Source of the DNA: Antedon mediterranea
Taxonomy: Eukaryota; Echinodermata; Crinoidea; Comatulida; Antedonidae
Length of the DNA: 64,000 nt
Assembly (NCBI RefSeq): GCF_964355755.1
Contig: NC_092674.1
Coordinates: 26,152,001 to 26,216,000 of the forward strand
Direction of reading: 5' to 3'
Positions within the stretch are counted from its first letter, which is position 1; each line of letters begins with the position of its first letter. Both the position numbers and the translations under genes were made by a program. Below the pieces are notes generated by a model. It was given only the letters and a program-made list of their open reading frames with translations, was not told the DNA's origin and did not search any database. Positions 1 through 27,862 of this stretch are shown one piece after another.

Positions 1-744
1 ATGTCCTATTCTTAACCATGTACAAATACATATAGTAACCTAGTACAATATCCTATTCTTAGCATGTATAGTACAATACCGACCGATGATGTAATCAGAG
101 CCATGGAATACAAGTATTATTTGATCGCATTACCGTACTTAACAACAACCTCTCTAGACAATACTAAATAAAAGTTTGTTATATAACACATATTCAGATC
201 AAATTTTGAAAATTACAAAGCAGAGGGTAGGCTGTTAAGTTCACTTCATGTCACACACACAATCTCCCCCTACCCTTTTTAAAAATCCTGGATCCTCCAC
301 AGTAGCATATGTAATGATAAATTTTAATCTGAACATTTCTTTTGAATTTGAAGTAATAATGTCTAAATAAATTTAATCACAATTATATCTAATTAATGTC
401 TGTATATTGGCAAATAGTATGAACCAATAAAACAAATAAGGAAGGGGGAAGGTGTGTAACACAATAATGCAAATTCTCCTGCTTTAAAAACAATATTGCA
501 TGCATTCGTTGATCCACTAGAAATAGTAAGAAAAATTCAAACCCAGTCATTTGATGTGAAGATAACCATGTTATTCAGAAAAAAAAGGATTAAATGTCCA
601 TATTATTTTGACACAGAAAAAATGTGTTAAGCCTTTCAAGCGATGCTATTAAATTCAGTATACACAATCTATAAATTTCATTCTAAAATTAGAAAATTAA
701 TTTAATATTAATATGTAAATGAATTTTGATTTGTTTGCCTTTAG

Positions 745-932
745 TATACAGACAAGAATTCATTATTGACGCAACTCCTAGGTAGGCACGTCAATATTAA
801 TTCATTAAATTGTTTTTCATAGCAAACTGAATAATTCACAGGAAATATTCTCCGACTGGAGAAATCAACATTGATGAATCATTCAAGAAAGCTTACGACA
901 AATCTGCCTTAAATAAAACGATTTTGAATTAA
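745..932 (+). CDS. Last two coding exons of an unidentified gene (3' partial)
   Basis: Two short exons read as one protein-like end. Exon 745-781 follows a TTTAG acceptor and ends at AG|GTAGGC; exon 842-932 follows a CACAG acceptor and ends in TAA. The phase is consistent (two bases plus one make an Arg codon), giving about 42 residues that include the motifs FIIDATPRKYSPTGE and DESFKKAYDKSALNK. The intron between is only 60 bp, and reading through it meets a stop at once. An AATAAA lies 86 bp past the stop. I do not recognise the family. Upstream exons must lie outside the window or in the first 740 bases, where I found none convincing. Coding status is inferred from residue composition, phase and polyadenylation context. 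Confidence 0.5.
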
Positions 933-1017
933 ATTTGTTGTGTTATCTTAGTGATAACAACTAATGTGTATGTAATATTGTCAGTGATATTAAATGTTCA
1001 GTGTTCTGTGTATTGGT

Positions 1018-1023
1018 AATAAA
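1018..1023 (+). promoter_or_regulatory. Polyadenylation signal AATAAA
   Basis: Canonical AATAAA 86 bp after the TAA at 930-932. The flanks are rich in T and GT, as expected near a cleavage site. It supports the two exons just upstream being the 3' end of a real transcript. Confidence 0.45.
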
Positions 1024-2018
1024 GGTATGGTCTTGAAAAAGTAAATTTTCTTGAGCTCAAAAAAGACCATTCAAATTAATTCATACTCATAGCCTAATAA
1101 AGTATTAAAGGCCCTGTTTTGGGAATTTTAGCATGATACACTAGCATCTTGGTCACATACTGTAATTAATCTTATGTCTCTTAATTACCAAAGTTACAAG
1201 ATAGGTGCTACTGTCACATACTTTCCCAGAGACATTTCTGAAAAATGAAAATTCTAAAAAAAAAACATAGTTTCTTTCAGTATTTACATTTCTGTAATCT
1301 ACAGTATATCCGTTTTTCTTCCACAAATTCCAAAATTATGTAGCCCTCTGGATCATAATTGGTTGGATTATCCTTATGATTACCACACTTAACTCTCTAA
1401 CCAATTAAATTAATGCACTAAATTATTAAAATAATTAATATTACATTTGTACACTATAATAGATAAAACTCTCAAATTCGTAAGTTTTAATGTGATTCCT
1501 TTCATTAATTAATAATGAATATTCATACATCACATGTCATTGGCACAGATACCTATTGAAATCCAAAAACTAATTTATTAAAATAAATTAGTTCAATTTA
1601 ATGTGATTTATATTCATGCCTGGTGCACATAATTATTCTACAAAAAAAAAAGAAGCAGTATTTTATCTTGTTAAACAAAACATAAAATTGGCGGGATTAC
1701 AAACTAACATCTAATAAAATTTAAAATGTAACATTTAACTATTTAAAGTTTCTTACGACTACATTCAACAATTATAATATCTGGAAGACATGTATAGTTA
1801 TTTGTTATTACTAAACAGACAAGGCAAAACAATATGTACTTTAAAATAATACCTAACAAAGGAAATACAGAATAGTCTACACATGGTCTACACTAGCAAA
1901 CTCAGGAGTTCGCTCAACTTTGCAAAGTTTGCCTGTGTAAATGGAGTTTAGCAAGAAAAGTTGGTTAGGTCGTAGACCAGAGATAAACTTTAGCAAACTA
2001 TAGAAAAACACAAGAGCC

Positions 2019-2395
2019 TTACACTAGCAACATTTGGTTTACTAACTTGAGCAAACTTTGGTTTGCTAACTTGAGCAACCTTTGGTTTGCTAACTTGAGC
2101 AAACTTTGGTTTACTAACTTGAGCAACCTTTGGTTTGCTAACTTGAGCAAACTTTGGTTTACTAACTTGAGCAACCTTTGGTTTACTAACTTGGGCAACC
2201 TTTGGTTTGCTAACTTGAGCAAACTTTGGTTTACTAACTTGAGCAACCTTTGGTTTGCTAACTTGAGCAAACTTTATTTTGCTATTAATTTGGGCAAACT
2301 TTGGTTTACTGACTTCAGCGACCGTTGGTTACTAACTTGAGCAAACTTTGGTTTGCTAACTTGAGCAAACTTTGGTTTGCTAACTTGAGCAGAAG
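2019..2395. repeat. 24-bp minisatellite, about 15 units
   Basis: Head-to-tail units of the type GAGCAAACTTTGGTTTGCTAA plus CTT, with a few recurrent variants (caaactttgg/caacctttgg, gctaac/actaac). Because 24 is a multiple of three, several frames stay open on both strands and give an 8-residue repeat (NLSKLWFA type), which I regard as an artefact. The flanks at 1885-2015 contain ACTAGCAAAC-like words that recur near 54345-54430, so the array may have arisen inside a dispersed element. Confidence 0.9.
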
Positions 2396-2856
2396 TTAAG
2401 TCATGCATCTTTTTGACAAAACCTTTGCTGAGATTTGGGAACTTCAGTGAATCAAACCACATATTGTCACATGGTCATGAAGATGGAAAACGAAACGAAT
2501 AGTTACAAAACTTCTCTAAACAGTGAGAGTGAAATCGAGAGTTTTGGTGAAGTTTGTAGACTACAACAAAAACAATAAGCAATAATTATAGAACAACAAA
2601 ATCTTTGGGGAATTTTGTAGTGTGAAAAGACAGCTATAGTGAAAGAAAAACGAAAAACTTTAGCCAAAATCTATATAACCTTTTAGCCATGTTATAAAGA
2701 AGTAGTGGCACTGGAATGGAAAAAAAAAACATAGAACCATCATATGGAACACAGGTTGGACAGTACTGCATCTAGTCAAGTGTTTCACCAACTTGCTTAG
2801 AATGAGATAAGGATGTATAAGTGTGTGAAAACCGTTCTAGTCATAATTTGAAAATA

Positions 2857-3039
2857 CACCCAACTCTCCCAATACTGATCACACTAAAGGCTAATCTAAT
2901 ATGTATGGTTTTCTGGAAAGTGTGGTATTTGTGTGGTGTATTTTTAATGTTAAAAAAGAATTTTGGATCTCAAGAAAATTTCAGTTTTTTTCGAGTGTTC
3001 TTGTTTTCAAAGAATCCCGTAATGGGAGAGTTGACTGTG
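2857..3039. mobile_element. pogo/Tigger-like MITE, copy 1
   Basis: A 183-bp element with imperfect terminal inverted repeats: left CACCCAACTCTCCCAATAC, right ending GGGAGAGTTGACTGTG. It is flanked by TA on both sides, the target of the Tc1/mariner superfamily. Its sequence matches, in opposite orientation, the 177-bp element at 28668-28844, including shared interior words around GGTTTTCTGGAAAG. There is no transposase. An open frame of 167 codons runs across it but looks fortuitous. Confidence 0.65.
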
Positions 3040-4239
3040 TATATGAAATTACTCCATAAATTCAAATTTCTGTGGCACATACTAGAAATGCACAATCTCA
3101 ACAGAAATCTAGTAGCTAAAAACATTAGCCAAAAAAAAGAAGCATTTTTAAAAGAGTGTAAACGAATTTGGAACAGGAGAGAAAAGGTTGTGGGAGAGAT
3201 TTTAAAGATTTTTTCAATCATATGTACAGTTTTAGGAGTTCCAATAAAATGTTTATCAGCAACAAAAACTTCTTATTCACATGGCAATATGTTTCTAAAA
3301 CTTATAACTTACAATACTGTATGATTTAAATAATAGGTTTCTTTTAAAGCCCACACAACATACAGTATATCTGGCTCAATAAATGTATAGTTTATATGTT
3401 GGAATGTTGTATGTTGGCAATGTATCTATTTGGAATGTTATGATTTTGATTTGGTGGTTTATCCAACACATAATACACCATAATTACAATAGACACCTTC
3501 TTCTTCCCTATTGAAGGCAAACCCCTATTCAAATGACACACCTATACACTATAGTCAACCTATGTTAAATGAACACTTTTTTAAACCTGCTGTGTCTTAA
3601 TAAAGGACAGTGCTATCACTGGCTAAACCAAGAGGCCCCACTGCTTAAGCCAGAGCAACTAACCAGCATTGGAGGGCCCTTGGAGTGCTAAAGTACCTTT
3701 TCCCCCTGTGTTATGCCACTAATAGGGGATCTATTATTATCAGTCTATTGAAAAATAAATCCATGTGCATAATAGGCCACTCAAATTAATTGGGAAATGA
3801 TTGAAGTTTATTAGTATCTGGCTACTGTAATAATGAATTAATTTAAAACCATCAGTTCAAATATTGAATTATTTATGGAGAGATAATCAAGTGGTATATA
3901 CTGTACCGCAATATGTGGGAAATTGCAAACAATGTCAGTAGTTAGGTAATTTATTAATATATTATTAGGAATAAATTTAAATAATAAATACACAAACTAA
4001 AATGGAATGAAGTGATCCAGCATCTTTGATGATAATGGTAACTGATTTTAACAAGTTAGGCGTAAAAATAGATTTTAAAAGTCGTAGTAAACCATACTGT
4101 ACCATCTCAAAAAATTTAACTCGATTGAAAATTAAAGTTATTAACATCTTGAAAATATATATTTTTTTCGAATTGCAATAAAAGAACATCATAACATTGT
4201 TTGATTACAAAAAAACTTCTGAAACCAAAGTGTTTTTGG

Positions 4240-11300: not shown

Positions 11301-14300
11301 CATAACTCTTCAACTATATTCAGTGATGTAGTCATAAGAAATAAAGCGAGCCAGTTTTCGCAAGAAATATCTTTTCTGCCAATGGGTTGTCAAAGGCATC
11401 TGTGAAAAAGTGGTCAGGTTGAGCTTACTGGTGGCTATGGCCTTGAATTGGTCCTATAAAAAGTAATAGTTATTCTTTGCTAAAGTAAATACTTGCTGTA
11501 GCATGCAGACCTATTGTACATACATAATCATTTTTTCAGAGTTTTATCTCTTACATAAAATCATTGTATGCAGCAGTTTATTATATTATTCATTGCTAAT
11601 AATGCTACTGTTATGTACAGTACTGTATTTATATTAAAGTTTTAAAGGCTTAGTCTATTTTTACTTTAAAAAAAGAACTTCACAAGGCCAAATAGTACTA
11701 TTACACTTTCTAATAAAAGTCACTGATTATAAAATAATCTTTGCAGTGATTTGAATAATTGTCTTTTTTAGTGAAAGAAGGTGACTGAACTAAAATAACA
11801 AAATACTGAAATCACAGCCAATTGCACAACAATGAATATTGGAGTCAGTGAGGCGTATAAGAGCTCATGTAGAAACGCTGTTATAGAAAATAGGTTCAAT
11901 ATGGATCAATTTTAAAGCTCAACATATGTAATGTACAGTAGCCATTTTTTCCATAAATAATCCAAAATATATTTTGTCAATGTCTGAATTTTATTTAGCA
12001 TAGTTTAATAAAGGGACTTTTGCTAACTAGCATTAGTTTACAGTAGAACTCCTCCTAGTTAGTATTCAGGGGGAACTTCTCCTATTATTTAGAGGAACCC
12101 CCTCCTAGTATTCAGAGGAACCCCTCCTACAGTAGTATTCAGGGAAACCCTTCGTACAGTAGTATTCAGGGAACCCCTTGTACAGTAGTATTCAGGGGAA
12201 CCCCTCCTAGTATTCAGGGGGAACCTCTCCTAGTATTCAGAGGAATCCCTCCCAGTATTCAAGGGGACCGCTCCTACTATTCAGGGGAACCCCTCTTGTA
12301 GTATTCAGGAGAACAACCTCCTAGTATTCAAGGGGAACCCCTCCTAGTATTCAGGGGGAACCTCTCCTAGTATTCAGAAGAACCTCTTCTAAATTCTAAA
12401 GTAGAATTCAGGGGAACCCCTCCTACAGTAGTATTAAGGGGAAACTCCAATTAAGAGCATTCTCCTGTGAAAAATAATGTTATATATTGTTAAACCAGAG
12501 AGTTGTTATTTGGCTAGTTAAACTTAAACTTTATGCCCAGCCAGCCCCTAGTATGGAGATACTTTTTTTGTATGAAGGTATCACTTAATAGAGGGTCTAC
12601 TGTTTACAGTACAACAGAAAATCAAAATAAATCTGTTGAAATATGTTTTCAATTGAATTTTCGCTCAGTCTCAATCTGAGGATTTTGTATTGAATACAAT
12701 AGATTTTCTCTTAAAATCCTGACAGGTATAGAGCCTCTCATATAACTAGATAATAATGCCATTATAATATCTATAGTGTCAATGATTTAAAATCAAAAGT
12801 TCAAATATAATGATATGGTACATTACACAATCTATTCTTCTATTGTTTATAGTACCAGCATAATTTTAGTTGACATTTTATTATCCCAATGAAACAATCA
12901 TCCATTTAATTAGTATGGAACAGGAATGTTACAGCATTAAAGCCAGGGTTTAAAGAAAGGTCTGGCTTTTGATTAAATTATGATTATATTAAAAACTGGC
13001 AAGTTATTCAAATTTGATATCTGGTCATAAAATATTCAATCAATCACTTGGAACACAAACAAAATGACAGAAATGAACAAACACAGTCATAAATTCCAAT
13101 TTACATACACTATTAAATAAACTAAACATGATGATATCAGATTTAACAAACACGTTCTACCTGGACTGAAAAAAAGGTTGTTGACATTTCAAAGTATTCA
13201 TCATCAATAAAATAATATTTCTATGACATGGATTTTATTTCTTCGTATGACACATTTTCCATTCAACTTGCTGTGCATTTTATAAGTCAATATTATTTAT
13301 ATGATATAGTACTAGTTATAATGTGACCAAGGCAATCTAACAACAGGATGCTGAGCTCCAGATATCAAAGGGTTTAACTATGGCTGCGACACGATCAGTA
13401 CCAAGCCCTTTAAAAGATACTGCGCCACGGATGATATGTACATACTTTAGTACAGACTGTTGGTATTTGTCGCAGCCAGACATAAGATCAAAGGACTGTT
13501 CCGAACTTGGCAAGGCGAGCTCAGTGGCCTGTTTTTGTGACTTTAACCTACAGAATGTACTATACAGTACTGTAAACAATTGCAATTATAATAATAAATT
13601 TAGTATAATAGAATATAAACGCATTAATTGCTGTACATTGATTGTTTTCACTGCAATGCACTACAGTAATCTCAAATTGGAAAGTGGTCTAATTAGAGTG
13701 ATAACGTTGATGACTTACAAATAATAAATTTAAACAATTTTAAAGGCAAAGTGCAGTTGGTAAATAAAATACTGTATAAAGTATTTGGAGCTTTTTAAAC
13801 AACATGTTAGGGAAAAATGACTCAAATATATCGATAGCATAGAAATTTAACTGACAAATTAAGACATGAAAGTAGGCTGATAAATAATGTTTCCATGAAC
13901 TGCTAAGCCCACTTAATACATGCTGTAATTTATCATCCAATTGTGGGGGCGATGAAAGATGATTCAGTCACTAGCCAATTGACACATTTCAAGTTGTGAA
14001 AAATGAAGAGCTTTAAATGTTGCTACATACATACAACATTCTAATGTTGCTATGTGTTAGTGGAACATGTAATACAGTGAAATCCCTATTAAGAGGACAG
14101 CTTTGAGACCAAATAATGTTTCCCTGAATAGGGGGGGGGGGGGGATGTTGTTCCTCATTCATTTCATGCAATAATTAGGCGTACCCTTTAATCTTTTAAT
14201 AACGGTGTACCTATCAATAGGGGTGTTACAGTACAGTACTTGTATCTTTCAATAGGGGTGTACTGTACTTTACCCTTTAATAGGGATATATCTTAATTTA

Positions 14301-17300
14301 TAACAAATCTTTCAATAGGGGTGTATCCTTCAATAGGGGTGTGTATCTTTCAATAGGGGTGTACCCCTTAATAGGGGTGTGTACCCTTTAATAGGGGTGT
14401 ATATCTTTCAATTGGGATGTACCCTTTAATAGGGGTGTGTACCATTTAATAGGGGTGTGTACCCTTTAATAGGGATGTGTACTCTTTAATAGTGTACAGT
14501 ACCATAGAGATATTATAGTTAAATATTCACTATATAATATCTCTATGGGTGTACCAATTAATAGGGGTGTACCAATTAATAGGGGTGTACCAATTAATAG
14601 GGGTGTACCAATTAATAGGGATGTACCAATTAATAGGGATGTACCAATTAATAGGGATGTACCAATTAATAGGGATGTACCAATTAATAGGGATGTACCA
14701 ATTAATAGGGATGTACCAATTAATAGGGAGGTACCAATTAATAGGGGTGTACCAATTAATAGGGGTGTACCAATTAATAGGGGTGTACTGTACAATTTAA
14801 TAGGCGTGTCCCAAAGGAGGCGTTCTATTGTACAGTGCTCTAGTCTTTTGAAAACTAAGATTGACATAGTGGTTATTAAGTTTGAGAAAATTGTGTTTGT
14901 TTCTTTTTTCTTATTTTAATCAACTGATTAAAGATAAACATTTTCAACTACCGTAATCATAATTTGAGAAGATAAGTTCTGTAAAATGATATTTGTATCA
15001 AAATCTGCATGTACTGTATGTATTCTATGATCCAGTATCGTACAACATAATTGAAATACATAGTAAACAAGATACCAATTTGTTTCTTTGCAATCATATA
15101 GTAGTACAGTATCATCTTTAATCAATATCAAATGTAGATAGAAGGTAAAAAAAAAGTCTATGAGTGGGTGCTAGCTAATAATAGGACTTCTCTTCTCAGC
15201 AAAATGCAAATTATAACAAATATAATTCAATGTTTTATTCATGATATTGCCATTGATTACTTATTGTAAGTAAACAAATTGAGTAGGATGAAGAAATCAA
15301 CACAACAAACATTGAAAATCCCCACTCAAACATTGAAAATCCCCACTCAGACATTTAAAATACACCACTCATATTGTTCACCTTTTTTGTAATGTATTTT
15401 GAGGACATGTGGCAAAGTGTGTTGACGTTTACTGATCATGGTTCAAATCCAACTCTAGCCGCATTAGTTGTATCCTTAGGCAATACATTTGCCTCTCTCC
15501 ACCCAATTGTATAAAATAGGTACTGGTTAGATCAAGACACAACTTTGCGCTGATCACTAGCTGCATTATTATGGGAGTATTTTTCCATACGCGTTTGATC
15601 CAAAAAATTCCGGGATGTGCAGCGCATTGAGAGCTTCTTTATATGCACTATATAAGAATGAACTATTATTATATTTTCTGAACTAAATAATTGTTCAATT
15701 GGTCTGAAAATCTTCAATAAGATTATTACAATCAATTCTGTAAATTGTCCACTGATAAAAATATTATTTGATTTCAGTATTTATGAATAATGCATAAGAT
15801 TATGACTAGGAATGAGTGGGATGAATTCATAATGATTGAGAATTACTGTTTACTTTAGAAATAAAGTCAATTTGGTTCATTTAATATGGTCTGCTTCAGA
15901 TGGCAATAATAGATGAATCACGCGATTAAAATGACCGTGACTACAATTTTCAAATATACTGTATCACCCGAAGAATCAATATTTATTTTTAGGAATATTA
16001 TCTTTCTTATTATCTCATAAATATGCATTGGATAGTGTGTTAAAATAAACATTCACCATATTTTGTCTTGGAAATAATAACTTCATACAGTAAGGATGCT
16101 CTTACATAGTAATATGGGTTAATTAATAAGTGCTGGTTGTATACAGTTAGTGATAAGAGTACTGTATGCCTAAGAAAAGTATCAATTTTAAAGGGTGCGC
16201 TAATCTACTAGGGGTGCCCTAATGTTCTAGGGGTACCCTCAAATTAAGTGTTGGCTCAATGTTGAGATCTCTTTTGAGTATATCAATTGTGTTTCCTATT
16301 GTTAAAATACTGATATTTCTATATAATACTTTCTGGAAATGGTTGACACATACTGTACAGTACTGTGGTTTCATTTGAAGCAATCAGGAAATTTAAATCA
16401 GAATATCAGTTAATATAAAGGTATATTATCAAGAGTCTAAAAATACAGAAAATAATTCTGCACTAGAAATTCTGATATATTTTTATATAATAATGACAGT
16501 ACAGAATACTTTGTGATGTGCCCAAATATAGTAGTGATATTCTCAAATATGGCAGTGATACTGTACTGTATGACATCACATTATTTTTTCACATACTGTA
16601 ATGTTTGAAAAAACATCTGTGTGAAATAGAAAAATATACAGTACAGTAATTACTAGACTACAAAGGATTATTATAAAAAAAACATTTTTTTCAGAGATGC
16701 CAAGGGAAACTGGTTATTAAAGCCGATTTTCCACTAGGCGAATTTGTTCGCGCGAATCGAAAGCGTCATGCTATGCGCATGCGTATTCAAGTTTCTGTCT
16801 GTCATACTCCCTTCTGCGACGAATTCTTGTTCCTTTGATTTTTCGCTTCAGCGAAATTTACTAGTTCGAATTGTTTCTACTTTTTGCGAAGCGAAATATT
16901 GCGCAACCAATCAGAGCTCAGGAGATGAGCTATGACGCTTTCAAGAGCACTCATGCGAATCGAAATGCTCAGCAACCACGCGACAGTTTTACCCGATCAC
17001 CCAAGGAAATTTCATTTGCATATTTTGTACAGAAACCTGATTAAATATACTGTAATTCTGGCTCAGTGCAAACGTAGCTTATTTATCCCCTAATATGGGT
17101 AACTTGGCATCTCTGATTTCTTGCAATGACTGACATACGTACACTGATAATAACTAAGATCACTGTTTGGACACACCATATACATCTCTTTGCCTTCCTC
17201 CATACTTGAATCCCATTTTACTCGAAAGTCTGAATCGTGTAATACATCATACATTACGGACGCTGATACATCTGAAAATACTTTATGTGCCTGAAATTTA

Positions 17301-18973: not shown

Positions 18974-21900
18974 ATGCAGAAATCACTCAACCTGTGTAGT
19001 CTTTTTGACGAGGGATGTGCTAAAAATAACCAAAACATTGCTGTTTGTATGCTGACAGAGAAAGAGTTACTTAACACCACATATTCTAAACTATCAGAAC
19101 TTTCTAAAGTAATAGCATCTGTACTGAGACAATACAGTTGTATTGGAAAGTTTATTGGTATCATTGCATCACCTTCAATTCACATTCCTGCTATTATTTT
19201 AGGGTGTGTATGCCTTTTATTGTCACACAAAGTTCTAAAAATCAGATTAAAATCAAATACTATATTTCAATACAATACAGTTTTATCATCCTTAACAACA
19301 ATACTATTATTTTTAAAACTTTTATACAAATTATTTATGGCAAAAACAAATTCTTATCCCCTACTGAAATTATTACTTTTTTTACAATTAATGAAAATAT
19401 TTGTATTCAGTAAACAAAATTTAAAGAATCATTATCGAAAATGCATGATTTTGGTTGTCAAGCGTTCAAAGGTATGGTAAACATTGACTGGATTTTTTTA
19501 ACTCACTTTAATCATAAAATCGTGGACATAAATTTAAACTTTTTTATTTGGCCTCTGCATTATTAATGTTTATTTTTACTGACGGAAAACTTGATCAGTA
19601 TTAGCAGTATTTTTTGCTTGATATTTTTAAATGTTTTTTTTCACAGGATCCTGAATGCGCCAGCTTGTTTCGTTCCAGTAGACCTTTTGCCAGATACCGC
19701 CCTCAACAGTCTCGGCATTGATTACATGATCTGTACAAACCGTGATTCCCGGGTATTAACATCATAAAATAGATATTATTTCAAAATAAATACATTTTTC
19801 AAAATGTTTGTGTCCTCCTGTAAAGCCCTGTCTACACTATCAAACTAGTTTGACAAAAAATGTGAGGTGCCCAAATATGGTAGCGATATGACATCATCGT
19901 GCCCAACACATCTTTTTTTCACATAAAGTTTGATAGTGTAGACAGAGCTTAACCATCAACATAGTTTTGAAATTGTTTTCCAGATAATCTTAGAACGTTT
20001 TCATATGAAGCATGTGGAATCACCAGCACTTGTCCCATATCAACTTGTATTGATGATGCGCACTACAAATATTACTCAACTAGAATCAAAACATAATTGT
20101 CAAATAGCATATGCAATGCACACGTCAGGCTCCACTGGAACACCGAAAGTGGTACGGGTACCTCACAAATGTATTGTACCTAATATTATGAGTTTAAGGT
20201 AAAAAGCTCTGTCAACACTATCAAACTTTATGTGACAAAAAAATGTGATGATGATGATTTGGGAATATCACTACCATATTTGGGAATATCACTACCATTT
20301 TTGGGAATATCATTACCATATTTGGGGATATCGCTACCATATTTGGGCACATCACATTTTGATTTTTCAACTAGTTTGATAGTGCAGACAAAGCTTTACA
20401 CATTAGAACCCTGTCTTTGGTCACTTCTGTTCTTGTATAATGAATGAGGGGAAATATAGTTTAACACTACAGCTAATAAAGGAAAATCCCTAATAAATGG
20501 ACACTTTGTTGGGTCCCTGAGATGTCCCCTTAATAGGTGTTCTTTTCACATTATCTTTTCACTGGAAAAAAGACAGATATATCGACAGTGTGGAGAGAAG
20601 ATATATACAGCGATTTTGCCAAAATGGTTTCTTTCTCTTTAATTTTCAAATCCCTATATTTTTGTTATCAACCTTCCAGATCTAAATTAAACGTGAGTAG
20701 TCAAGATGTAGTTTTTATGGCATCACCTTTAACCTTTGATGCTAGTATTGTGGAGATGTTTCTGGCCTTGTCTACTGGAGCAACATTATTTATGGTTTCT
20801 ATGACAACAAAGTTGATGCCGAGGAAGCTGGCTAAAGTTTTACAAGACAACAGTGTCACAATCATACAGGTACAAAAAATATAAATCAAAATCAATGATG
20901 TTTTTAATCTACTAAACTTAAACACATCACAACAGCAGACATAAATTTATATTTTATTTTTTTTTTAAATTAGGCAACACCAAGCCTTATTTTCAGATTC
21001 GGACCAGACCTCTTAAAGAAAACCATTCTAAGTAGAAGTACAAAGCTCCGTGCATTGATACTAGGAGGAGAGCCATGTCCAGTGCCGGCTGTGATAGCCG
21101 AATGGAAAGAGGAAGGAAATACAACAGAGATCTGGAATATATATGGAATAACAGAAGTTTCAAGTTGGGCTACACTGTACAAAATAGCAGAAAAGGATAT
21201 TAAGAACAAAGTGAATAAAAGGTATGTTATTTTATCTTAATCAATGGTCTCTATCTATGGACCACTTGTTGCTGTTTCAGCTCTTTATAACTATTCAACT
21301 TATACTGTTTCTGTTAAATTTCTTCGCTTTCTTGATTTTTATTTTGACAATGGAGTGTGCCACTTGGTGAACCATTGGATGGAACAGTTCTTCAAGTCAG
21401 GAACGATAGAGGGCAGGCTATAACATCTGGAAAAGGACAACTCTACATAGGTTTGTTTTTAAGAATATTGTTTTAAAACAATCCTTGAAAAACATTGTTC
21501 TTTCATTTTTATTTTTTTATTTCATAAGCATCCAACAGCGAGAACAAACTCGCCAATTATAGGATGGATAAACTATTTAATAATTTATCATGCTTATAAG
21601 CTAAGTCTCATTTGAGGCTTAGGGAGTGGAGTTTAAAGAGTCGTGAGTTTAGTTGGCACTAGGTCAGGATTGAACCTAGGATTTTGGGATTGGCAAGTAT
21701 GGTAACCACCAAGCTACAGCTCTACTATTGTCATATATAATAAATGTTTCCATAGAAACAAGAACATCATCTATCTGTAGACTATCACAAAATACAATGT
21801 TTAGCTTAGCTCACTGAAACATGTTGCAAATGAGGTTAAATTAAATACAATTCTACTTTCGCAATCAGGTGGAGAGGAAAGAGTCTGCTTGCTAAATGAC

Positions 21901-24900
21901 GAAGATGTCATTATACCGAGGACAATGAGAGCAACTGGTGACATTGTTGAATTGTCACCTGAAGGTCTATTGTATATTGGCAGGAAAGATCACCAGATCA
22001 AAAGAAATGGACAGCGTATTAATCTGTCACAGCTATCAGAGGTACCAAATATTTGGTTAAATGCTACACATACAATCAGTCATCACATAGTAGAAACCCT
22101 ATTCAAGGGAAAAATCCTATTAAGTGGACAATTTCCCATGTCCTTCTAATGCTGGTTCTACTGTTATGTGGAGGGCAGCAAAGGCTGATGATGATGTATG
22201 GAAAATAATTAATGACATGATTTTTGTTTAGGTTTAGATGCTACACAAACAAACAGTAATAATCGTGTCACAGCCACAGATAATCCCTTTGATCTCCAGA
22301 GCTCAGCATCCTGTTGTTGTCCTATTGCCTTGCTTCTATTAAGGGTCAATTTCCCATGTTCCCTTTAAAAAATATAAACCTTGAAACCTAAATACTACTG
22401 ATAATTTTGACAAAAACCGAAATAATTACAATAAGGTAACTATCTACAAAACAGAGTATATATAAACAATAGAAAGGAATTCAAAGTAAAAGATACATGA
22501 TTTTATTTATTTAGGCAGTATCATCAGTTTCACTATTCACAAGTAGCTGTATTCTACAAGAACCAAGCACCAATAAACTGTTGCTGTTTGTTATACCAAA
22601 TACAAGCAAAGCACAACCATCAGTAGATTCTGTATACCAAGAGTTAGAAAAAGCTTTACCCAGGAATTGTATTCCTGATGCTATCCACATCCTGGATGAA
22701 CTACCAATGACAAAGCATGGGAAAGTGGATACTAAGAAGCTGCTAGCTCAAAGGGAGGTTGCAAGAAGTGGGGTTGCTGGAGAAACGATATCTGATGAGG
22801 AGCTGCGAAAGATTTGGAAGGTATGACTAACATTTGAAGGGCGATACAGTAGAATCTCTTTTTGAATTGCTGTAGTCTACATTATCAAACTAGTTTGACA
22901 AAAAAGTGTGATGTGCCCAAATGCAGTAGTGATATGACATCATCATGTCCATATATGGGCACATCACATTTTTTGTCATAACAATTTGGTAGTGTAGACA
23001 GAGCTCAAGACATTTGATACATACAAAAAGAAAACACATAAAAGACATATAAACAAGTTAGAATATCAAAGGAACCTAGGAATATGCATGTTCTGGAAGC
23101 TGGAGTTGAAGGGTCACACCATTCCTGGTGATAGGATCTCTTGACCCTTCTTAGCACACTTCACTTTTGTGTTGTTTATTTTTTAAATTAATGTTTTCCT
23201 GAAGGGATAAGATAGAATTTTCTGAAAATAAAAGAATAATAATAATAAATAATAATAATAATAATAATAATTTAATAATCATAAATACATTATTTTATTA
23301 TTAAAATAATATATATCTGGAAATCATGGAATGTCTAGTTTTAATAGAGAATTATTTCTCTTCATTATGACATTGTAATCATTTTTTCAAATGTAATTTT
23401 GGTATAAGAAAGGTCATTGAAAATCATGGAAATTAATTCTTGAGAAATTGTATAAACCTTGATATATACTCGCATATTTTCATTTCATATTATAATTTAT
23501 TACAGCATTATTGTTGTAATATCTTTCAAATTAAAATTGATATTCATAGCTGTTAAGGGTTTTAAATTAATCTTATAATACCACATAAAACATAATAAGC
23601 ATGTTATGCTTCAGTTGCGTCATGTGTCCTATCAAATTTAATTTGTTGGTACATAAACTAAATTGTATGTTGTGTTCTAACATTCTCATGATTAATACAA
23701 TGTGATATACTACTGACAGGCCAACCCTTGAGACAATTCAAATTACAATCTAAAGATTGTCTAGAATATCAAACTAGTGTGATGTGCCCAAATATGGTAG
23801 TGATATGACATCATCGTGTCCATATATGGGCACATCATATAAGTTTGATGGTGTAGGCAGGACTTTAGTAAAATTTTACCTTAACCTCATAATATTAGGT
23901 ACAATACATTTGTGGGGTACGCGTGCTACTTTCGGTGTTCCAGTGGAGCCTGATGTGTGCATTGCTGATATAGGCACATCCCAATTTTTTTGTCACAAAG
24001 TTTGGTAGTGTGGACAGAGCTTTAAGACTAACATCATTTCTACTTCTGTAATTATATCTTGAATATCAATCAAATTCTCAGTTTAAAATGTCACTTAATG
24101 TTTACCTTATAGTATTACTATTAATTGTCTGACATTTATCACTTCATCTCTTTCAGGATGTTCTACAAATTAAGAGTGAAATTAACGATGATAGTAATTT
24201 TATTTTACTCGGAGGCGATTCTTTCCAAGCTATCAGACTATTAAATCAAATTGAACTAGTTACAAGGCAGTCTGTACCAGATCTATTAGATTACATACTT
24301 CATAACAAATATCATGAAATATTTGAACTTATAAAGAAAAATGTCTCAAAGAAAACCACATGTAAACTATTGACCAATCACAGTGCTGCAGAAAAAGGAT
24401 GTTCAGTTTTACATGGATTGTTTTCAGATAATGTTCAAGATAAACTGTTAAACCCAGACACAGAAAATAAGAATAACTTAAAGACCACATGTAAGGTAAC
24501 TACCAATCAAAATGCTGAAGCAACAGGATGTTTAATTTCACATGGATTGTTGTCAGATACTGTACCAGATAAATTAAAAAATTTGGATACAGAGAATGAA
24601 AGGAAAAGAAGCATGAGTTCAGTAACAGATAATTTAAATAAATCAAAACAATTAAAAACAGATAATACAATTGCATCAAATAGTTGTACATTTTCAGATG
24701 ATAAAAAAGTATGTCGTGGTTCACAGAGAATAGTGCAATATACAGACAAGATTATATTAGAATGTAATAATAGGACTAGAAAAAGGAGTCAAGGAACGGT
24801 GTCTATTAAGGAGAGGTGGAAATATGACACAGCCAAATGCATTGATGCATCACCACTATTGGTTTATAAAGATGGGTAGGTAATCTATCAATCTATATAA

Positions 24901-27862
24901 GGGCGTGTGGCGCAGTGTGTTGGACGTTCGACTACTGATTGCGAGGTTCGAATCCAACTCTCGCCACATTGCTTGTATCCTTAGCCAAGATATTTTACTT
25001 ATGTTTGCCTCTCTCCACCCAGGTGTATAAATGGGAACCTGGTTAGATCAAGACATAACTTTGCGCTTATACTATAGCTGCATTATAGGAGTATGTTTCC
25101 ATACATATTTGATCAGGAAAAAATGACAGGGGTAATAATGTTCAGCACTCAGGTTTCACAACATTAGGCACTATATAAATTTGGGATATTATTATTATGT
25201 CAATTTTCCTATTTTACGTCTTTCATCATCAGTAAGAGTTTACAGCAAGATACTTAATATGATCGTTATTTGCAACTATACCACAAAATGTATTATTCAA
25301 TTTATTTTATTTTTTTTAGTGACAATGGTGTAGTTTATATTGGTTCTCACTCTCACAAGTTTCAAGCAGTTTTATTTGATACTGGGTTGCTGCTTTGGAC
25401 AAGAATGTTAGGGGACCGAATTGAATCCTCAGCCTGCCTTTCGAAGTGTGGAAATTATGTCATAGTTGGTGAGTACAATAATTAGATTATGGAGATATAT
25501 ACCTCTATGAATTTATTAGTTGTGTTAGGATTGAAAATTGTGTGAGTGAATTAATCGTGGAAGTTATAAGAAAAGATGGATGAAGAAAAAATGAACCAGT
25601 AAAGAGAACTTGGCATCTAGATGTTGGAGCGGAAGAGAATGGTCAAAGGTGGAAAGATATGGTACAAGATTGTTAACACAAATATCAGTTTGGAAGAAGT
25701 GGAGTATGTCTATAGTATAACACCATGGAGTGAGTGACAGTCAGTAACCACATGGAAGAAGAAAAAGAAAATTGACTTGAATAAAAGATTTGATAATAAT
25801 AATAATAATGTTCAATTTATATATTGCAAAATGCAGGGTGATAACATCTTTTGTTTTACCTTAGGATGCTATGATCATAATGTGTATGTGTTAAATGCGG
25901 AAAATGGTGGAATATTTTGGACATGGGAGACAGGTGGGCCAGTCAAAAGCTCACCTATTGTACACCTCCACACAGGCATTGTGTTTATTGGGTCACATGA
26001 CCAGTGTATTCACGCTCTTGATATAGAGGTAGATAAATATAATTTAGCTTTATTAAATAGTGCCTTTATTTGAATGCACTATATTCAATCTCAATATATT
26101 GTTCATTTAAATTAAATTTTTAATGTGAGTTCTAATTAGTGTATCTTAAATACTATGTCAATATAAGTTTATTTGTTGGAAGCTGGAGTTAGAGGGTCGA
26201 CAATTCCCATGGATATAGATATCTCTACTCTTGGCACTCCAGATCCAGGGGATCCAGGGGAGGGCCCCTTCCCCTAAATTTTTCAAATTGTAATGCAAAA
26301 GATAGGACATCAAATTAAGGTCAGTCCTTCATTTCACTGTTTTTAGGCACTGGGCCCCCTATTTCAAAATCCTGGAGCCACCACTGACAACACATTGTGT
26401 TCTTGTTTATTTTTATGTTATGTTTATTTCGTCTTGCTGAAAAGAATAAAATAAAGCTCTGTCTACAATATCATATTCTATGTGACAAACAAATTTGGTG
26501 CCCATAATAATGGACATGATGATGTCATATCACTACCATATTTGTGTATATCACTACCATATTTGGCCACATCACATTTTTTTTAGTTTCTAGTTTGATA
26601 GTGTAAACAGGGCTTAAGACTCATTGGTACATTAATCATCTTTTGAACTACTTTTGGTTTCAAGTAAATTTTAAGAGAAAGATCAATAGTTTCATCAAGG
26701 CCAAGTCATCAAAAATGAAACAAAAATGAACCATGTATTATATGTATATAAGCTGGGTTAAGTACATGAAATGAAATATATTGATTAAATGACATTTAGA
26801 CTAATTATGTTATTAGAAAATAAAGACCTAGATAAACATATGATTATTTTGTCATCAACAGAATAAAAACTGTTTATTTTCAACTCATTGCGGCGGAGGT
26901 TCAGTCTTTTCATCGCCTTGCATCGATGTCGCCATGGATACAGTTTACGTTGGTACATTAAATGGAAAACTAATGTCCATCAATTGTGTAAGAGAAATAT
27001 ATTAACCTTATTACTGCAGAAGAGCATCCCTATCAGTTAATGGTACAATCCATAAACCCCCATCATCAAGTGGAAACAACCCAACACACTACGCAATAGA
27101 CAGTCATACTGTAGATGTTTATACAGTAGAATACTTTTGTTTTTACATATATTTTCAGATATCTGGTAAAGTGAAATGGAAAAATAACATTGGCAAGCCA
27201 ATATTTTCATCACCATCGGTAACAAAAGAGGGTGTGGTTGTCGGGTGCGTTGATAATAATCTGTACCATATTAGCTCGTCAAATGAAATGGTAAATTGAA
27301 ACAATATATAAATGATATAAATATACATAAAATTAAAAAAATAGAAAATATAAAAGCATTTTAACCTTTAAGTATATAACAACCTACTAACTGTTATCAA
27401 GCCTAAACATATTGTTATTGGCTAAAAAAATAACTAAAAAATTGTAATCCACAGCTTTGGTCTTTCGAAACCAGTGCTCCAATATTTTCATCACCCTGTG
27501 TATCAAACACTCACCAATCAACCACTGAATTAACAGTAATTGGATCACATGACTCTTATATCTATTGCATTCATACATTGACGGGTAAAGAAGTTTGGAA
27601 GTTTAAAACGCCCTCACCTGTCTATGCGACACCATTTATATTTCAAAGTGATATTCTACAGAGCGAGGGCGGTAATAATCACTTTGTCGTTTGTTCTTGT
27701 ACTCAGGGTTTTATTTTCGTGCTTAGTTTATCAGGACAGTTGGTGTTATCGTGGGAACTGAATGGCGACATTTTCTCATCACCGATTGCTCATGATAACA
27801 ATATAATAGTAGGATGTAGGGACGATAATATTTATAATTTACAATTTGTGAATGACAATTAA
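18974..27862 (+). CDS. AASDH: AASDH / ACSF4: adenylation, carrier and PQQ-like propeller protein, 14 coding exons
   Basis: Exons: 18974-19203, 19647-19752, 19984-20198, 20680-20869, 20974-21221, 21356-21450, 21869-22041, 22515-22820, 24157-24875, 25320-25468, 25865-26028, 26862-26987, 27159-27290, 27455-27862. All introns are GT-AG and all junctions keep phase: 1,086 residues (human about 1,098). Adenylation domain about 1-500: TSGSTGTPK (159-167), YGITE (304-308), ATGD (383-386), GRKDHQIKRNGQRI (399-412) and the catalytic-type Lys489 in KHGKVD. Carrier domain: LGGDS with Ser543 as the predicted phosphopantetheine site. The linker contains a 43-residue tandem duplication (587-629 and 630-672). 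The C-terminal third has repeated VYIGSHSH/FSSP/VGC motifs of PQQ-type beta-propeller blades. The family activates an amino or fatty acid as adenylate and loads it on the carrier; the human substrate and role remain unsettled (beta-alanine has been proposed). The gene looks intact. Confidence 0.96.
19823..19950. mobile_element. MITE family M, copy 1 (intact)
   Basis: A 128-bp element with inverted ends AAGCCCTGTCTACACTATCA and TGATAGTGTAGACAGAGCTT. The interior has GTGCCCAAATATGGTAG and a TATGACATCATCGTGCCC block. It sits in AASDH intron 2. The superfamily is unassigned. Confidence 0.85.
20204..20396. mobile_element. MITE family M, copy 2, with amplified interior, abutting a splice donor
   Basis: Ends are AAGCTCTGTCAACACTATCA and TGATAGTGCAGACAAAGCTT. 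The interior is a short array of about four to five 21-bp units (TTGGGAATATCACTACCATA), present once or twice in other copies. The left edge lies about 5 bp after the AASDH exon 3 donor (GT at 20199-20200), so the element supplies much of the 5' part of intron 3. Confidence 0.85.
22256..22335 (+). repeat. Dispersed repeat family D, partial copy 3
   Basis: Matches the end of 6471-6640: CAGCCACAGATAA, CTTTGATCTCCA and CATCCTGTTGTTG are shared. It is in AASDH intron 7, preceded by a short Tigger-like end (GAAACCCTATTCAAGGGA and CCTATTAAGTGGACA at about 22091-22130). Confidence 0.6.
22869..23006. mobile_element. MITE family M, copy 3
   Basis: The left end CTGTAGTCTACATTATCAAA and the right end TTGGTAGTGTAGACAGAGCT are inverted copies. 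The interior has GTGATGTGCCCAAATGCAG and ATATGACATCATCATGTCC. It is in AASDH intron 8. Confidence 0.8.
23096..23280 (+). mobile_element. Retroelement-like 3' tail ending in an (AAT)n microsatellite
   Basis: The block GAAGCTGGAGTTGAAGGGTC through TTTGTGTTGTTTATTTTT and a CTGAA...GAATAAT end resembles the segment at 26175-26452. It runs into (AATAAT)n, as is typical where SINE or LINE 3' ends insert. Class not established. Confidence 0.45.
23757..24023. mobile_element. MITE family M, copy 4 plus an adjoining second partial copy
   Basis: The first part, 23757-23868, has left word AGAATATCAAACTAGTGTGA and right word GTTTGATGGTGTAGGCAG. A second right end (CACAAAGTTTGGTAGTGTGG to ACAGAGCTTT) lies at about 23996-24023 with a diverged interior. 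So this is one degraded copy followed by part of another, or a single copy with an insertion, in AASDH intron 8. Confidence 0.65.
24352..24609 (+). repeat. AASDH: In-frame 129-bp tandem duplication inside AASDH exon 9
   Basis: Two adjacent 129-bp units (24352-24480 and 24481-24609) encode similar 43-residue segments. Each begins with KTTCK or a close variant and contains HGLxSD, PDKL or QDKLL and DTEN. The duplication keeps frame and lengthens the carrier-to-propeller linker. The copies differ at many positions, so it is not very recent. Confidence 0.85.
24901..25197 (+). mobile_element. tRNA-derived SINE, copy 2 (well preserved)
   Basis: The head has an A-box-like GTGGCGCAGTGTGTTGGA and a canonical B box GGTTCGAATCC 27 bp later. 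A body shared with the copy at 15401 follows, then a tail GGCACTATATAAATT and ATTATTATTAT. It lies in AASDH intron 9, 25 bp after the exon 9 donor, in the same orientation as the gene. Confidence 0.87.
26175..26452 (+). mobile_element. Retroelement-like 3' tail, second copy
   Basis: Begins with GGAAGCTGGAGTTAGAGGGTC as at 23096, continues through CTTGGCACTCCAG and CTGGGCCCCCTATTTCAAAA, and ends in TTTATTTCGTCTTGCTGAAA plus an A-rich tail. MITE family M copy 5 is inserted directly at its end. Confidence 0.45.
26454..26615. mobile_element. MITE family M, copy 5
   Basis: Ends are AAGCTCTGTCTACAATATCA and TTTGATAGTGTAAACAGGGCTT. The interior has GGACATGATGATGTCATATC and two TCACTACCATATTTG units. 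It is in AASDH intron 11. Confidence 0.85.

Follow-up and report, generated by a model that had tools for sequence, protein, structure and literature searches.

Locus-specific minisatellites derived from the subterminal motif of a pogo/Tigger-type MITE family in Antedon mediterranea

In every array that was tested within members of a short pogo/Tigger-type MITE family of Antedon mediterranea, the repeat unit derives from the element itself. In-place expansion from direct repeats built into the 3' end of this non-autonomous element is, in our judgment, likely to be the best explanation. The birth of a minisatellite or satellite is usually reconstructed from a single finished array. Here, one family in one genome presents many apparently parallel births, and because unexpanded, intermediate, and finished arrays can all be read, the rule proposed for where an array starts (where a probable binding motif is directly repeated) is directly testable. 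The window, i.e. the whole stretch of 64,000 nucleotides that was analysed, is C5:26152001-26216000 of a host genome of 354 Mb in 18 contigs.

Elements and arrays in the window

Two elements, A and B, were located at coordinates that agreed exactly with those of the first-pass annotation when the sequence was re-read. They and their parts are the following.

12041-12602, minus strand: element A, member of the CAGTAGAACC..TTCTACTG MITE family, reversed, with its own 5' end at 12602
12046-12443, minus strand: array A, ~14-16 units of ~22 bp (22-23 bp), GGAGGGGTTCCCCTGAATACTA, from TRF
12444-12602, minus strand: 5' portion of element A outside the array, together with its 5' terminal repeat; ordinary element sequence
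14075-14830, plus strand: element B, same MITE family as A, forward, 756 bp
14075-14134, plus strand: in element B, the 5' terminal repeat plus the first of the subterminal motifs, from reading of the sequence
14184-14500, plus strand: array B1, older, diverged units of ~18-20 bp, GTGTACCCTTTAATAGGG type
14502-14548, no strand assigned: near-perfect 47-bp palindrome between B1 and B2, inverted arms of 16 nt (100%)
14549-14790, plus strand: array B2, homogeneous 18-bp units, TGTACCAATTAATAGGGR
14806-14830, plus strand: 3'-terminal segment of element B, at which the array ends; 3' end pattern score 21/25

The two had been described merely as related; they are oppositely oriented members of a single pogo/Tigger-type MITE family of short (~170 bp) elements. 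When compared to the family consensus, the 5' part of element A (as its reverse complement) scored 79.5 (shuffles: mean 26.6, maximum 44.5), and that of element B scored 83 (mean 26.2, maximum 45). Element A is 562 bp long, and its termini read CAGTAGAACTCC and TCTACTG; the outer 136 bp of its non-array 5' part, when used in a DNA search of the genome, matched this copy only. Element B extends from the C at 14075 to the G at 14830, and its 3' end (GTGTCCCAAAGGAGGCGTTCTATTG) agrees with that of the family. Flanks of TA or TTTA had been claimed for both. Element B is flanked by TA at 14073-14074 and at 14831-14832, and TTTA stands to the left of element A; to the right of A the sequence is again TTTA and TA does not follow directly, which makes the TSD of A imperfect.

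TRF confirmed arrays in both elements, at 12046-12443, at 14309-14492 (~20 bp, 9.4 copies), and at 14550-14788 (18 bp, 13.3 copies, 98% match). The second of these falls inside the B1 zone, the start of which was set by eye; the third represents B2, and the nearest neighbours of the B2 units all lie within B2 itself. The initial description of the interiors as almost wholly minisatellite overstated the case for element A, in which the array occupies only ~70% and 12444-12602 is not repetitive. Array A consists of the expanded 3'-subterminal motif together with terminal bases. In both elements, the array takes the place of the same 3'-subterminal segment and adjoins the element's own 3' end, as it does in A because that element is reversed.

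The palindrome sits within the array zone of element B. It was considered as a nested repeat family and rejected, because it is single-copy (one genome-wide match at ≤3 mismatches). Elsewhere in the window, at ~20690-22040, there are exon-like stretches that, as read by eye, may encode an AMP-binding (acyl-CoA synthetase/AASDH-like) protein.

The MITE family and its end motif

Family members were sought using a 5' end pattern (CAGTRGAACCYCTATTAAGRGGACA, ≤3 mismatches allowed) and a 3' end pattern (GTGTCCCAAAGGAGGGRTTCTACTGTA), with reversed patterns as controls. Genome-wide, the 5' pattern had 871 + 860 matches (~1,700) and the 3' pattern had 339 + 248 (~590), counts that include repeat matches inside arrays; both reversed controls had 0. 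A direct 60-bp DNA search returned five loci only, and it was the pattern searches with mismatches that recovered the family. The terminal inverted repeats start with CAGT (5' CAGTAGAACC..., 3' ...TTCTACTG) and occur in both window elements and in hundreds of copies (control, 0). TA was immediately 5' of the element in 17 of 23 family loci. The family is short and without coding capacity, with the shortest complete copies being 83-101 bp in length. A very short (~75 bp) relative without an array is present in the window at 22088-22163.

The family consensus (~170 bp; CAGTAGAACCTCTATTAAGGGGACACCTTTGGGACCCAACAAAGTGTCCCCTTAATAGGGGTTGGCTGTAGTGTTAAAACATATATTTCCCCTCGTTCGTTTCACAGGAAAGTGTCCCCTTAATAGGGGTGTCCCCTGAATAGGGGTGTCCCAAAGGAGGGGTTCTACTG) was compiled by eye from roughly twelve members. 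It features GTGTCCC at positions 44, 112, 129, and 146, and the inverted word at 20. The end motif (GTGTCCCCTTAATAGGG) is therein bounded by direct repeats, i.e. GTGTCCC words 17 bp apart, which are already present in unexpanded copies. A further direct copy of the motif is found near the 5' end, and the inverted copy is in the 5' terminal repeat. The 3' part holds one 17-bp unit in some members and two in others; even the one-unit form is flanked on both sides by GTGTCCC.

Origin of the units

The units of the window arrays were aligned to the consensus and compared to 5,000 shuffles. The scores were 29 for unit A (p 0.0004), 34 for unit B2 (p 0.0004), and 43 for unit B1 (p 0.0002). The best of 3,000 random 170-bp pieces of the window scored 22, 24, and 30, respectively, and none equalled the full consensus score. 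The units thus fit the element far better than they fit shuffles or AT-rich window DNA. When one motif copy was removed from the consensus, the signal for unit A fell to p 0.0024 (0.005 versus window pieces). The first-pass annotation had taken the units for copies of the subterminal end sequence; their origin in the element held, with the qualification that they stem from the subterminal motif and not from the extreme end, and only unit A includes terminal bases (GGAGGGGTTC).

The same comparison was made for all TRF arrays. Those inside family elements (in the window and in the end-chosen samples described below) beat all 300 shuffles against the consensus, with z from 4.7 to 52, whereas z did not exceed 3.2 for those in the flanks or in the rest of the window.

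Unit number and array frequency

A search for copies with 1, 2, or many units had been proposed. Copies with 1, 2, 3, or many units are present with the same 3' terminus as the stop, and they form a ladder of 0, 1, 2, 3, ~10, ~21, and >30 units. The 83-101-bp elements L111 and L110 have 1-2 units. Arrays abut the 3' terminus in L037, L038, L039, L053, L099, L104, L114, and others; L039 is complete, with a 5' end, ~34 units, a 3' end, and TA on either side. In L047, the array is located inside the 5' terminal repeat instead of the 3' part.

The 5'- and 3'-end samples were chosen by ends alone and are biased towards copies whose ends are well preserved. Of their 43 elements, 14 contained arrays; ~1.07 were expected from the rate in the flanks (~0.15 scored arrays per kb; P ~1e-11). 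Loci that had been retrieved with the array pattern itself were excluded from this rate. L069, L074, L078, and L084 represent a different duplicated sequence and were set aside, as were L080-L082, whose matches all lay inside one array. A chance origin was rejected on the basis of the shuffles, the reversed-pattern controls, and the flank rates. Arrays of at least 3 units were present in 7 of the 20 elements of the 3'-end sample:

L098: 82 bp, 4 copies
L099: 17 bp, 21 copies
L104: 16 bp, more than 30 copies (a lower bound)
L108: 17/51 bp
L109: 18 bp, 3 copies
L114: 20 bp, 10 copies
L116: 43 bp, 3.5 copies

The unit counts for L109 and L114 were taken from TRF; the automatic upstream walk missed their diverged units.

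Arrays crossing the element end

Arrays lie mostly within the element, as the first-pass annotation implied, but they can extend past its end to include the terminus and flanking DNA. C6:20677125-20680985 (L117, L118) is a 3.9-kb satellite whose 61-68-bp units are made up of the MITE's 3' half with its terminus and TA. Its 61-bp unit begins at internal TATTTCCCC, crosses the 3' terminus, and ends at flanking TATTT, with a junction microhomology of 5 bases. C4:15881270-15883990 (L080-L082, L119) is a 2.7-kb satellite with ~49 units of 55-56 bp; the 55-bp unit comprises the MITE 5' terminus, TA, and ~28 bp of flank-like DNA. In L058, a near-whole element is repeated together with adjacent DNA. 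Because these loci cross the element end, confinement is usual, not strict.

Proposed mechanism

We infer a mechanism of slippage or unequal exchange from the anatomy of the element. Once an element had inserted, slippage during replication or unequal exchange involving its built-in direct repeats would generate a tandem pair, which would then expand and be homogenised in place. The iterated putative transposase-binding sites (see below) would be the seeds for these events. Exchange among the 3' motif copies would give rise to ~17-bp minisatellites, and exchange of 5' with 3' motif copies to arrays of 65-82 bp. Long-period arrays bounded by 5' and 3' motif copies were found in L066 (65 bp) and L098 (82 bp); the periods of 43, 56, 72, and 228 bp do not match the predicted spacing of motif copies. 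Microhomology with the flank could carry an array past the element end, as the TATTT junction of the C6 satellite suggests.

Probable transposase-binding sites and a second MITE family

Around 12 DDE_1 loci, no autonomous element with the full terminal repeat of the MITE was found; L085 alone had recognisable ends. At 428-3183, this locus holds an apparently intact Tigger-like transposon with a perfect 24-bp TIR (CAGTAGAACCTCCATTTTACGTAC) and TA on both sides. The encoded protein (539 aa) has DDE_1 (1.9e-46) and HTH_Tnp_Tc5 domains. The outer 12 bases of the TIR, and no more, are in common with the MITE. At the 3' end of L085, a motif occurs three times at 15-16-bp spacing (GTACGTAAAATCGAGG, GATCGTAAAATCAGG, and GTACGTAAAATGGAGG), of which the third is the terminal repeat. 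As judged by sequence, the MITE ends follow the L085 plan with a different motif. The shared outer 12 bases, together with the threefold iteration of a comparable motif in L085, make it probable that the direct repeats of the MITE are iterated transposase-binding sites.

A pogo-type transposase, or a CENP-B-like derivative of the host, might drive expansion by nicking the iterated end motif after binding to it. The arrays consist of motifs that probably bind transposase, DDE_1/Tc5-HTH transposase genes that look intact are present in the genome, and Kipling and Warburton 1997 put forward nicking of satellites by CENP-B (summarised in PMC5857280). We nevertheless regard this explanation as unlikely, because a similar ladder of units exists in a second MITE family with unrelated ends (AAGCTCTGTCTACACTATCAAACT); pogo-type ends are therefore not required. 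In this family, a 21-bp unit (CATATCACTACCATATTTGGG) is present at 1, 2, 3, or 4 copies, and the single-copy form has nearly identical words on either side (CATATCAC and CACATCAC), at a spacing of 21 bp. Its members are as follows.

In the window: 19823-19950, 20204-20396, 22867-23006, 23753-23865, and 26454-26615
Outside the window: L044, L057, L060, L062, L072, L114, and L117

Since its ends are unrelated, the ladder of the second family favours a general direct-repeat mechanism over a pogo-transposase-dependent one. It is doubtful that pogo-type ends, made of putative transposase-binding sites, are hotspots at which a transposase or CENP-B-like protein promotes expansion. If that were true, the genome would be a record of CENP-B-like binding-site satellites arising repeatedly from transposon ends.

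A further repeat (CAACAGGATGCTGAGCTCC ... GGCTGCGACA), at 13340-13540 and ~22240-22330 of the window and also in L065, resembles a third MITE family; inverted arms were noted at 13374-13391 and 13468-13485.

Independence of the arrays

A total of 458 units were cut from 19 arrays (A, B1, and B2 were counted apart). The nearest neighbour of a unit was in the same array in 91% of cases (0.91), compared to 10% (0.097) with shuffled labels, and 16 of the 19 arrays had no exact unit in common with any other. The units cluster by locus, and therefore most arrays are separate births or were separately homogenised; the differing periods (16, 17, 18, 20, and 22 bp) favour separate births for many of them. 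The recurring route from transposon end to tandem array, suggested at the outset from A and B, was borne out by the private-unit arrays at many loci. Neither of the two outcomes named at the outset as contradicting this route was seen as a general rule.

Exact units were common only among L039, L040, and L047 (three types in L039/L040, one in L047/L040), so that transposition or convergence may account for a few of the array-bearing copies. The broader proposition, that a few source elements gained arrays and spread by transposition with the tandem repeats riding on the MITE, could draw on these loci; it is distinctly improbable given the arrays without a common unit, the same-array nearest neighbours, and the variation of period by locus. 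It is very improbable that longer arrays were selected because extra binding sites raise transposition. There is precedent for such selection in Galileo and Tetris (PMC4079207), but array variants are almost never common to loci, which argues against array-bearing copies as the active ones. Although tandem repeats are abundant in the genome, as the flank rate given above shows, the notion that elements inserted into, or captured, pre-existing minisatellites is hardly credible, as it is contradicted by units that match the element inside elements and do not outside them, and by the replacement of a fixed element segment by arrays.

Comparison with known systems

Arrays born from MITEs or terminal repeats are already known (Xstir, miDNA4, and Tetris TIR-220). 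In Xstir / Xmix of Xenopus (Hikosaka and Kawahara 2004, described in PMC12628747 and PMC9659126), MITE-internal sequence gave rise to tandem repeats, as is seen here, with MITE, composite, and array forms side by side. Xstir differs in being a piggyBac-type MITE (PMC2872659) for which repeats were reported to ride on the element and a stem-loop mechanism was proposed; the Antedon case comprises many private arrays in a pogo-type family. The Tc1/mariner-type MITE miDNA4 of Xenopus tropicalis (Scalvenzi and Pollet 2014, described in PMC12628747) carries one monomer or a variable array. Short direct repeats of at least 5 bp are invoked for its expansion, a point of similarity, and its ancestral MITE is considered to have captured a pre-existing repeat. 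The Antedon unit, by contrast, is a subterminal motif native to the element and arises repeatedly in different versions.

Tetris TIR-220 of Drosophila virilis (PMC4079207) is alike in that repeats in the TIR are partly terminal-like and some arrays reach kb size. However, it is a foldback element with a 220-bp unit of one common type and mostly no contig clustering, whereas the Antedon units are 16-22 bp and locus-specific. BrickBuilt of Porphyromonas gingivalis (PMC4596501) likewise has a 23-bp minisatellite in the MITE interior; it is bacterial, and no statement that the unit comes from the termini was found in PMC4596501. Coral CMITE arrays have been attributed to slippage (PMC2872659).

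Traits of tandem arrays derived from transposable elements are present here: the unit comes from the host element, and there are copies with one and with many units. A single array type common to many copies, which is usual in the described cases and not strictly defining, was not seen; the units are mostly private. In a limited literature search that included few subscription journals, no description was found of a family in which ~1/3 of the sampled members bear their own array of mostly private units. The unusual part of the Antedon case is the frequency of recurrence within one family.
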